Assembly (NCBI RefSeq): GCF_000739065.1
Contig: NZ_CP009149.1
Span: 682,001 to 746,000 of the forward strand
Source of the DNA: Methanocaldococcus bathoardescens
Lineage (GTDB): Archaea > AGJL01 > Methanococci > Methanococcales > Methanocaldococcaceae
DNA: 64,000 bases
Direction of reading: 5' to 3'
Part shown: positions 50,845-59,900 of the stretch, in pieces
How the letters are laid out: each line of letters starts with the position of its first letter
Numbering within the stretch: position 1 is the stretch's first letter
Notes under the pieces: model-generated
The model's database searches: none
What the model was told of the DNA's origin: nothing
The model's input: the letters and a program-made list of their open reading frames with translations, nothing else
Translations under genes and position numbers: made by a program

Positions 50845-51037
50845 AATAGGACTTTCGCATTTTATATATTAACTTTGGAAATTGAATGCTTAAGGCATCA
50901 TTAACAGGTTGAATGCAGAATAAATTTAATATTATTGAATAGTTGAAGCCGATGGCTTCAAAATTGCCTTAATAAATATTTGAAGTGCATTCAACCTGTT
51001 ATATTCAATAAATTATTTATTTCTGCAAAAGTCCTAT
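50845..51037. repeat. PE6: palindromic element split by PE7, 193 bp overall
   Basis: The arms AATAGGACTTTCGCA (50845-50859) and TGCAAAAGTCCTATT (51024 on) pair with one G-T mismatch and are nearly the arms of PE2. The element is about 95 bp once the inner PE7 (50903-51000) is removed. Its own remaining hairpin is ATGC/GCAT around 50886. It lies upstream of asnB. Confidence 0.8.
50903..51000. repeat. PE7: palindromic element nested inside PE6, 98 bp
   Basis: A perfect 15-bp inverted repeat, AACAGGTTGAATGCA (50903-50917) and its complement (50986-51000), encloses the hairpin TTGAAGCC-GAT-GGCTTCAA (50943-50961). CCTTAATAAATA follows the hairpin, exactly as in PE1. Its arms are unlike those of the host PE6. 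Confidence 0.85.
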
Positions 51038-51069
51038 TAAACCAACTCATATTTAAAAATGTGAGAGAT

Positions 51070-56703: not shown

Positions 56704-56880
56704 TTGAAACTTTTAGAAAAAGTTAGATGAAAACTTTTAAAAGTTTTCATTGCCCGAAGCTTCGCTTCGGTTAAACAAAATCTTTCAGATTTTGTAGCTG
56801 GAAAGCAGAACTTTCCATTAAACAAAACCTTAGCGGTTTTGTAGCCCGAAGCTAACGCTTCGGTTTCATCAAAACTCGTC
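56704..56880. repeat. Array of seven consecutive small hairpins
   Basis: Seven stem-loops follow each other: AACTTTT/AAAAGTT (56708-56724), the palindrome GAAAACTTTT/AAAAGTTTTC (56729-56748), CCGAAGC/GCTTCGG (56754-56770), ACAAAATCT/AGATTTTGT (56775-56795), GGAAAG/CTTTCC (56800-56816), ACAAAACC/GGTTTTGT (56822-56842) and CCGAAGC/GCTTCGG (56846-56863). The middle is built of two units of about 47 bp with the same linkers TTAAACAAAA and TTTTGTAGC but different stems. The short flanks match 59870-59900 without the hairpins in between. Confidence 0.85.
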
Positions 56881-56884
56881 CATT

Positions 56885-56987
56885 TAACCAATTATCAAAG
56901 TTTTAAAATTAATATGGCACTTATAGAAGCCCCTTTGAGGCTTCTAAGTTCATTTTAACAAATAATATTTCCTTTGATAATTGGTTA
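56885..56987. repeat. PE8: palindromic element with preserved empty site nearby
   Basis: A perfect 16-bp inverted repeat, TAACCAATTATCAAAG (56885-56900) and its complement (56972-56987), encloses the hairpin AGAAGCC/GGCTTCT (56925-56945). On both sides it is flanked by sequence that is continuous at 59845-59870 (inverted), where only CCAACTTAATAGACGAG is found. That second location is the empty site. Confidence 0.88.
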
Positions 56988-56991
56988 TAAG

Positions 56992-57010
56992 TTGGGGCTT
57001 TCAGCCCCAA
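56992..57010. repeat. Hairpin of the inverted repeat flanking the CCA operon (left copy)
   Basis: TTGGGGCT-TTC-AGCCCCAA forms an 8-bp stem with a 3-base loop. The surrounding 31 bp occur in inverted form at 59828-59858. Confidence 0.85.
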
Positions 57011-57056
57011 TTAATGTCCATATTATTATAACAAAAGGTTTAATTTGGTGATTATT

Positions 57057-58373
57057 TTGATAGAAAAAATATTGGAAGAAGTTTTAAAAGAAATAAAGCC
57101 ATCAAAAAATGAAATAGAAAAATTAAAATCTAAAGCAAATGAAATTATTAATAAAATCTGGGAAATAGTTAAAGAAAATAATTATCCAGTTTTAGAAGTT
57201 TTGTTAGTTGGTTCTTCAGCAAGAAATACAAATTTAAAAAATGATTATGACATAGATATTTTTGTATTGTTTGATAAATCAACTTCTGAAGATGAATTAG
57301 AAGAAATTGGACTAAAAATAGGGACAGAGGCAATAAAAAGATTGAATGGCTCTTATAAAATAAACTACGCTTCTCATCCTTATGTTAATGGTAAAGTTGG
57401 TGATTATGAAGTAGATATAGTTCCATGCTATAAGATAGATTTTGGGGAAAAAATTATTTCTGCAGTTGATAGAACTCCTCTGCATCATAAATTTCTAAAG
57501 GATAGATTAAATGAAAAGCTGTGTGATGAAGTTAGGTTGTTAAAAGCATTTTTGAAAAGTTTGGGACTGTATGGTTCAGATGTTAAAACTAAAGGATTCT
57601 CTGGCTATTTATGTGAGTTGTTGATTTTACATTATGGTTCATTTATAAACCTTCTAAAAGATGCTCAGAATTGGAAAATTGGGAAGAGAATAATTTTAAA
57701 GGATATTTTTGAAATTTATAAAGATGTGGATGTTAAAAATCTTAAGAAATTTGATGAACCATTTATTGTTTATGACCCAGTAGATTTAAATAGGAATGTT
57801 GCCTCCCCATTAAGCAAAGAGAATTTTTGCAAATTCATATTTTACTCAAGAGAATTTTTAAAAAATCCATCTATTGAGTTTTTTAGAGATTATGCTAAAA
57901 AAATGGAAGAGATTTTGGAAAATAGAGAGCATGGGTATAGATTAATATTGAGAATTCCAAGAGAAGATGTAGTTGATGACATCATTTATCCACAAATGGA
58001 AAAGCTTCAAAAAAGTATAAATAAAGCTATCACAAAACATGAATTTGTAATTTTAGATAGTAAGTGTTTTGCCGATGATAATTATTGTTATCTATATTGG
58101 GAATTTTTAGTGCATGAATTGCCAAGAATTGCTCTGAGAGAAGGGCCACAAATATTTAAAAATGATAGGGTTGAGAGATTTTTAAAGAAATATGATAAAG
58201 TTTTTATTAAGGATTGTAAGTTATTTGCATATACTGAGAGGAAATATTCTCATATAATCGATTTATTTAAAGATATTATTAGTGGGAATTTACAGAACAT
58301 CTCTATTCCAAAGTATGTTAATCCAAGAAATGGAGAAATCATTGAGTTGAGGGATTATGGAAAATACAAGTAA
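57057..58373 (+). CDS. cca: CCA-adding tRNA nucleotidyltransferase (archaeal class I)
   Basis: The protein has about 438 residues. The nucleotidyltransferase motif LVGSSARNTNLKNDYDIDIF lies near residue 53, with the catalytic DID pair, and the third carboxylate in YEVDIVPCYKI. Later features include TPLHHKFL and RLLKAFLKSLGLYG. It builds or repairs the 3' CCA of tRNAs. The frame is open from GTG 57045, but GGTGATTATT makes TTG 57057 the probable start. The downstream DUF530 gene overlaps its end by 17 bp. Confidence 0.9.
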   Translation: MIEKILEEVLKEIKPSKNEIEKLKSKANEIINKIWEIVKENNYPVLEVLLVGSSARNTNLKNDYDIDIFVLFDKSTSEDELEEIGLKIGTEAIKRLNGSYKINYASHPYVNGKVGDYEVDIVPCYKIDFGEKIISAVDRTPLHHKFLKDRLNEKLCDEVRLLKAFLKSLGLYGSDVKTKGFSGYLCELLILHYGSFINLLKDAQNWKIGKRIILKDIFEIYKDVDVKNLKKFDEPFIVYDPVDLNRNVASPLSKENFCKFIFYSREFLKNPSIEFFRDYAKKMEEILENREHGYRLILRIPREDVVDDIIYPQMEKLQKSINKAITKHEFVILDSKCFADDNYCYLYWEFLVHELPRIALREGPQIFKNDRVERFLKKYDKVFIKDCKLFAYTERKYSHIIDLFKDIISGNLQNISIPKYVNPRNGEIIELRDYGKYK

Positions 58374-59817
58374 TTTAATAAAAAATGCCAATGAATTTTT
58401 GGATTCTTTAAATGGGATTAACAACAAATTAAAAGAGATAGTCGATAAGATAAAAAATAAAACTATCGATAAAACTGAATTATCTAATATTATATCAACC
58501 TTAGAAAAAAATTTAGAGATTTTGCAAGATTTGAAATCAAAAATGGAGTTTTTAGAATTTGATTCCCCATACAAGAACGTTGGAAAGTTAAAAGGTAGCT
58601 ATGATAGTGAGGGATTACAAGAAATAGCAAGTTACAGCACATATCTAAGAAGGATAGCCAGTGAAAAGAAAGGGATATTAGAGAGAGTTAGACATGCCTT
58701 AGTTGCTCATAAAATTGCTTTAGCTCACTTAACTGAAGATATTGGTAATATAAATTTACCACCAAACCTACCATTAGATGGTTCATACAAAAAGATAATG
58801 TTTGAATTCCCGCCATATTTAGTCACAACCTACAAAGAATTTTTAGACATCTTAGAACCGAAAGGTAGAGGAATTTTAACCTCATATACGGTCTCACTCA
58901 TAGTAATTGATAAGGGAAAGAGAGAATTTAAGAGAGTTAAAGTTGAAGATAAAAATTATGAGAAATATATTAAAGAGAAGTTTGGAAATGCAATAATTAC
59001 ATCAATAAAAAGAAATTTCTCAAAGAATAAAATTATTGATGACCAGTATGTTAGAAGGGTTTTAGCTATTGGCTATCTAAATGCTTACAAAGATGAAATT
59101 GAAAGAGCCATAAATGAAAAGATTGATAAGTTGCTTAATGAAGAAGAGAAAAAATACCTCAATAAATATTTAGAGCTCTGCTTATTATTTAGAGAAGAAG
59201 CAGATATAAGTGGAGGAATATTGGATGTTAGGTGTATGGAAGAAAGAAAATTGAAAGAGCTTGAACTTAAAGAGATTTTGGAAAAAGAGGGATTATATAA
59301 AGATGGAGAACCAATTGAACTATTAAAAAAAGCCATTAAAATTAAAAATGAGTTATCTAAGGAAATATCAAAAGATATTTTAATAAAAAAATTCTCTGAG
59401 GATGTGTTTAAATTTTATCTCTATAAAACTCCAGATGAAAGAGCAAGAAGTAATTTATTCCCATCTATCATGATAACTCCACAGAAAGGATTTTTATCTT
59501 GGATGAAAGTTGAGGGAGTTGATTGCATAAATGTCTTAGATTTAAAATTTAAATTAGAAGAAGAGCTTCCAAAATATCAGATTCCTTTAAAGAATATTGG
59601 AGGAGTTGCTTTATACTTAATTCATGATTGGAAAACTGTGGAGAAATTCAACTTTAACAAAAAAGATATTGAAGATTTATTGAAAAAAATTGCTTTAATA
59701 GAACCAATAAAAGAAATTTTAAAGGATAAAAATGTAGATATCAGCAAGTTAGAGAAGTTTGGTAAAGTTAAAAAAGAGAAAACTAAGAAGTTTTTGGATT
59801 TACTGAGTGGATTGTAA
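58357..59817 (+). CDS. DUF530 family protein
   Basis: This 486-residue protein matches DUF530, which as far as I know is confined to methanogens and relatives. The first 60 residues are a coiled coil (NKTIDKTELSNIISTLEKNL). The middle has MFEFPPYLVTTYKEFLDILE and a four-cysteine-poor helical core. The C-terminus has FPSIMITPQKGFLSWMKVEG. It overlaps cca by 17 bp, so translation is coupled and a tRNA-related role is a reasonable guess. No catalytic motif is recognised. Confidence 0.75.
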   Translation: MENTSNLIKNANEFLDSLNGINNKLKEIVDKIKNKTIDKTELSNIISTLEKNLEILQDLKSKMEFLEFDSPYKNVGKLKGSYDSEGLQEIASYSTYLRRIASEKKGILERVRHALVAHKIALAHLTEDIGNINLPPNLPLDGSYKKIMFEFPPYLVTTYKEFLDILEPKGRGILTSYTVSLIVIDKGKREFKRVKVEDKNYEKYIKEKFGNAIITSIKRNFSKNKIIDDQYVRRVLAIGYLNAYKDEIERAINEKIDKLLNEEEKKYLNKYLELCLLFREEADISGGILDVRCMEERKLKELELKEILEKEGLYKDGEPIELLKKAIKIKNELSKEISKDILIKKFSEDVFKFYLYKTPDERARSNLFPSIMITPQKGFLSWMKVEGVDCINVLDLKFKLEEELPKYQIPLKNIGGVALYLIHDWKTVEKFNFNKKDIEDLLKKIALIEPIKEILKDKNVDISKLEKFGKVKKEKTKKFLDLLSGL

Positions 59818-59825
59818 ATTTAGAT

Positions 59826-59900
59826 TGGACATTAATTGGGGCTGAAAGCCCCAACTTAATAGACGAGTTTTGATGAAACTTTTTCTAAAAGTTTCATTGT
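59826..59900. repeat. Right copy of the inverted repeat flanking the CCA operon
   Basis: It contains the hairpin TTGGGGCT-GAA-AGCCCCAA (59836-59854), then TTAATAGACGAGTTTTGATG and the palindrome AAACTTTTTCTAAAAGTTTC. The left copy (56704-57016, inverted) has the same parts but with PE8 and the hairpin array inserted. The repeat reaches into the last codon and stop of pyrE (59894-59896). Confidence 0.88.

Follow-up and report, generated by a model that had tools for sequence, protein, structure and literature searches.

PE8, a 103-bp palindrome at positions 56885-56987, is probably a non-autonomous, MITE-like mobile element that is moved in trans and lands only at one position of hp1, a small hairpin in a second interspersed repeat (the host repeat). 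We put the probability of this reading at about two in three. The sequences compared are better explained by repeated insertion at a specific site than by one composite repeat that was duplicated. In the proposed mechanism, an element of ~100 bp with a conserved 16-bp inverted repeat at its ends would be recognised by a putative recombinase or transposase, which would insert it in trans. The sole landing place would be one position on the 3' arm of hp1 (AACTTA^ATGG). The hp1 hairpin or its base is likely to be the recognised target, and most changes would represent insertion, not exact excision. The window, that is, the whole stretch of 64,000 nucleotides analysed, corresponds to 682001-746000 of a single-contig genome of 1,607,556 bp (G000).

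PE8 and the host repeats around the CCA operon

The gene for the CCA-adding tRNA nucleotidyltransferase (57045-58373, plus strand) and a DUF530 protein gene (58357-59817, plus strand), both of which served for assigning orthology, lie between two host repeats. These flanks are inverted copies of each other: 33 nt are 100% complementary (56988-57020 and 59826-59858), and a second shared block of 22 nt is 95% complementary (56863-56884 and 59858-59879). The first-pass annotation had described nearly identical inverted flanks with a shared block of 31 bp; the near identity holds, and the block is 33 bp long. PE8 splits the left repeat into the hp1 part (TGGACATTAATTGGGGCTGAAAGCCCCAACTTA, 56988-57020, minus strand) and the part past PE8 (AATGGACGAGTTTTGATGAAAC, 56863-56884, minus strand). 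On the minus strand, this left repeat runs from CCAACTTA through PE8 (TAACC...GGTTA) to AATGGACGAG. The right copy is intact: its hp1 part (59826-59858, plus strand) is continuous with the tail ATAGACGAGTTTTGATGAAACTTTTTCTAAAAGTTTC (59859-59895, plus strand), and the uninterrupted sequence is CCAACTTAATAGACGAG. The letters and coordinates of this split and continuous pair agree with those first reported. The left host tail (56704-56862, minus strand) contains extra hairpin modules (CCGAAGC..GCTTCGG, AAAACC..GGTTTT, GGAAAG..CTTTCC, and AACTTTT..AAAAGTT).

On the minus strand, the strand that gives the host orientation, PE8 of the window has orientation 1. Its terminal inverted repeats, TAACCAATTATCAAAG (56885-56900) and CTTTGATAATTGGTTA (56972-56987), constitute a perfect, 100% complementary 16-bp pair. 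A central hairpin, AGAAGCCCCTTTGAGGCTTCT (56925-56945), is recognised from the sequence, the alignment of copies and the fold. Relative to AACTTAATGG, the form that empty sites usually have, this site has gained a net 104 bp (103 bp and one A).

The pattern of host repeat and PE8 at the CCA flanks is not a product of chance, because G000 has 17 occurrences of the host repeat (none with the reversed-pattern control) and six full-length copies of PE8, and the fold of the left copy has z = -8.6. The strong fold could also mean that a functional RNA or DNA hairpin element includes PE8 as an optional structural module, which would be retained because of its fold and gained and lost by replication slippage at palindromes without dedicated enzymes. 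The hp1 stem carries compensatory variants and the tails include other optional hairpin modules, both consistent with such a function, which is left open by Rfam: the whole window gave nothing at the gathering threshold. However, slippage cannot account for one 100-bp sequence that is found in both orientations at loci that are not linked, and this explanation is highly improbable.

A single docking position

PE8 copies were catalogued in 14 genomes with BLAST and terminal-repeat searches, from the search results and fetched stretches. There are 21 copies in five Methanocaldococcus genomes. Among 67 host copies examined, 19 are filled, and two further filled copies (L139 and L048) were added by hand. 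All 21 PE8 copies are inserted at the identical position, AACTTA^ATGG, of the small hairpin repeat, whose full form with the docking point is TGGACATTAATT-stem-GAA-stem-AACTTA^ATGGAC. Every pair of terminal repeats found in the 14 genomes is inside a host copy. Two solitary exact matches to the terminal repeat (G000:1436918 and G006:589512) were considered as ends of a larger transposon and rejected; both belong to one conserved coding-like sequence. The copies range from 81 to 104 bp with terminal repeats of 16 bp. The terminal repeats are nearly invariant across the 21 copies and the interior is divergent, as expected if the ends are recognised.

A pattern search of the order detected the host hairpin in 9 of 36 genomes, all of them in Methanocaldococcus, one of the five genera. 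The exact palindrome was found in one Methanocaldococcus MAG only, in a collection scan from which records near the window were possibly left out. In the MAG G011, about nine CRISPR arrays carry a copy of the host repeat at one end, within their terminal, degenerate repeat (L130, L131, L132, L134, L136, L137, L138, and L139). Three of the nine closely similar host copies at these array ends are filled, with both orientations represented.

Empty hosts read AACTTA-ATGG, and most filled hosts read AACTTA-[TAACC..GGTTA]-AATGG. An extra base at the right junction is present in 17 of the 21 copies, and four are without the extra A. Any target duplication at PE8 is TTA/TA at most, clean in 4 of the 21 copies. 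The first-pass annotation had proposed to compare presence and absence across Methanocaldococcus and to define the target duplication from filled and empty pairs. Discordant orthologous sites were indeed observed (see below), but the most that the pairs yield is an ambiguous TTA/TA, as a rule together with the extra A. An ordinary target duplication is not definable, because all 21 copies are at one position of the second repeat.

Related palindromes have other junctions. In G000, AGGACTTTCGCA-type palindromes give 65 matches to their terminal repeat, and the 18 copies measured show direct repeats of ~5 bp (observed match 0.733 vs 0.544, permutation p = 2e-4, for the best of four lengths tested). 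The TATAGTCAATC-type palindromes have TA at both ends. From these junctions, the larger palindrome family lands at varied sites and PE8 at one. Nested palindromes are also observed: at 50846-51040 of the window, a palindrome with TAACAGGTTGAATGCA ends (50902-51001) is inside another with AGGACTTTCGCA ends, and a second nested pair is at G000:527415-527616.

The strict single position of PE8 would also be expected if an ancient composite of host and PE8 had been amplified and exact deletion of PE8 had then given the short form. That the host repeat, too, looks mobile would fit such amplification. In 42 of the 67 host copies, for example L111, L115, L096, L119, and L140, the flanks are direct repeats of the target, an end or start of a gene, over ~17-75 bp, and exceed the 95% level of mixed pairs. 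This control includes paralogous flanks, so that its 99% quantile is inflated. The variable length of these repeats suggests an unusual insertion process for the host repeat, as far as the sequences indicate. Against a composite origin, PE8 is present at the one position in two orientations, at a ratio of 15:6. Moreover, deletion between the TTA repeats that flank most copies would lead to AACTTAAATGG, yet empty sites read AACTTAATGG.

Other features of host copies were also recorded. The 40-bp duplications beside the orthologous hosts L140 (G013) and L144 (G007) are identical within each species and different between them, which suggests concerted evolution or parallel insertion. One host copy is in frame in a bioB-like radical SAM gene and adds the peptide RGTLIGAESPNLMDVGYPNRGFPLWV (L118, G003:1244247; L133, G011C15:6137).

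Orthologous sites: filled and empty

The CCA gene was located in 13 congeners and its flanks were read there; orthology of loci was assigned from both flanking regions. The window locus, 739020, carries PE8 in G000 and is empty in G003, which we take to be M. jannaschii and which has five PE8 copies of its own. The left CCA flank of G003 is GTCCATTAAGTTAGGGC.. where the window has GTCCATT[103 bp]TAAGTTGGGGC, and the empty left repeat of G003 reads GTCCATTAAGTTAGGGCTTTCAGCCC.

The flanks of the CCA gene vary further. In G011 the left flank is also without hp1. G001 and G006 lack the left block entirely: the glycosyltransferase gene nearly abuts the CCA gene, and the tail modules are not found between the two genes. 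The right block is missing in four genomes (G004, G005, G009, and G010). Because blocks present in some congeners are absent from others, the flank seems to have been built up by insertions that differ in age, PE8 being one of the later ones. There was no sign that the CCA operon had inverted through its flanks: the congeners in which both neighbours could be located share one gene order and orientation.

Other orthologous hosts are also discordant. One set of three is filled in G000 (G000_1433502), empty in G003 (G003_1637065), and filled in G011 (G011C105). G003_1118809 is filled and its ortholog G011C161 is empty. G000_58101 is empty and G013_1283399 is filled, a pair that matches on one flank only. 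The gain or loss of PE8 as a unit, as first claimed, is borne out by the empty orthologous left CCA flank in another species, by these other discordant loci, and by the occurrence of both orientations at one host position.

Orthologous loci filled in both species are informative about relatedness. At all three such loci, the inner parts of the two PE8 copies are only 72-76% alike. Each of these six copies is closer to a copy at another site (81-95%), which for five of them is in the same genome. Opposite orientations are observed at two doubly filled loci (G000_1433502/G011C105 and G003_726184/G006_1342469). At 1086079/G011C9, the host letters agree up to the insert on both sides and the PE8 copies do not correspond. 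Simple flipping of a vertically inherited PE8 was rejected, since PE8 copies at orthologous sites resemble each other less than they resemble copies at non-orthologous sites.

Near-identical PE8 elements (90-95%) occupy different host backgrounds. For example, the elements of G000_131566 and G000_1433502 are 95% identical and in opposite orientation, and their hosts have different hp1 stems and tails. Elements 95% alike and oppositely oriented in different hosts are predicted by repeated insertion at the docking site and not by a single copied composite. The non-orthologous elements in orthologous filled sites strongly weaken the derivation from an amplified composite, which is quite unlikely. 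The first-pass annotation had taken the filled and empty pair at the CCA operon to show directly that PE8 came or went as a unit, and as strong evidence of mobility. Mobility is supported, but the pair alone is not decisive, as it could represent two versions of one composite repeat; that reading of the pair is disfavoured because orientation and sequence relatedness argue against it.

Tail types differ between orthologous hosts. The left CCA host has tail A in G003 and tail B in G000 (L026 vs the window), and L123 and L102 differ likewise, which suggests the exchange of modules between host copies. In another orthologous pair, a double-hairpin module of ~46 bp (CGAAGC..TTCAAC) is found in one tail and missing in the other (L125 5346 vs L093 1086079), which makes a further filled and empty pair. 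Gene conversion or ectopic recombination between dispersed hosts could then have spread PE8 together with tails, and the 16-bp terminal repeats could occasionally have served to invert it. The hp1 common to host copies and the differing tails of orthologs are consistent with this, as exchange seems to happen, and PE8 copies are somewhat more alike within genomes (0.81) than between them (0.77). However, near-identical PE8 elements are in hosts whose hp1 stems differ immediately past the 6-nt AACTTA that adjoins the insertion point (GCCTC/GAGGC vs GGGGC/GCCCC), so that a conversion tract must end within 6 nt, and the changes of orientation require a second, separate process. Conversion as the source of the pattern is rather unlikely. 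For some cases it is possible, because tail modules differ between orthologous hosts, and recombination between dispersed host copies may have moved some PE8 elements in addition to the site-specific insertion favoured here.

Candidate enzymes and related elements

Transposases were searched for in G000 with three Pfam families. The IS630-type DDE transposase (PF13358) was not found in G000, and only G011 was positive. The Y1 (RAYT-type) transposase (PF01797) was absent from G000, and the IS110 DEDD transposase (PF01548) was absent from all 14 genomes, with positive controls for both. A search of the 14 genomes with the terminal-repeat pattern for an autonomous partner returned only palindromic copies and scattered single matches. 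A gene family beside several host copies (ending NPIEG.LKPQSFLVWNAIKKLL) was considered as a transposase and rejected; it is an archaeal ATPase (PF01637).

PE8 fits many traits of bacterial MITEs listed in PMC2229807: it is short, A+T-rich and without protein, its terminal inverted repeats start with TA, it is multi-copy, and empty sites are observed, here at orthologous loci. It is unlike MITEs in its single strict target inside another repeat and in the lack of a clear target duplication, and terminal repeats common to an autonomous transposon were not found in the 14 genomes. ISPsy8, ISPa11, and ISPpu9/10 insert specifically into extragenic REP palindromes (PMC1525189), and the targeting proposed for PE8 would be comparable. 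Both enter a palindromic repeat, but PE8 is a palindrome in its own right and carries no gene for a transposase. With REP/REPIN-RAYT systems, PE8 and its host share the character of interspersed intergenic hairpin repeats; they differ in layout and terminal repeats and in the absence of a Y1 transposase from G000.

Palindromic repeats of ~100 bp, MJRE1-3, are known in M. jannaschii (Suyama, Lathe and Bork 2005, FEBS Lett 579:5281, as cited in PMC2229807). PE8 shares with them the genus, the nature of short palindromic interspersed repeats, and an in-frame copy, that of the host in the bioB-like gene (G003 and G011). The MJRE set reportedly comprises 141 copies averaging ~100 bp, some of them within genes without a frame break, and its authors are said to have emphasised the great age of the elements and their coding potential rather than any fixed site of insertion. 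The class of PE8 resembles the MJRE palindromes in kind, in a comparison by description that leaves the MJRE consensus groups aside. Strict docking, two orientations at orthologous sites and a series of filled and empty sites were not found in the literature searched, which did not extend to the MJRE paper of 2005. Set against that literature, the restriction of PE8 to one docking site seems to be new.

It is possible, though doubtful, that PE8 is integrated by an archaeal site-specific recombination system of a new type, which recognises a hairpin-forming site in another repeat, and that the host repeat spreads by another process leaving target duplications of unusual and variable length (17-75 bp); the two mechanisms, both new, would then produce nested small elements. 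The loci described here provide several filled and empty pairs for palindromes whose mobility in methanogens rested mainly on sequence resemblance. The strict relation of an element inside an element is testable, and the orthologous docking sites make the turnover of such elements measurable across species. They also point to a missing enzyme, which should be findable.
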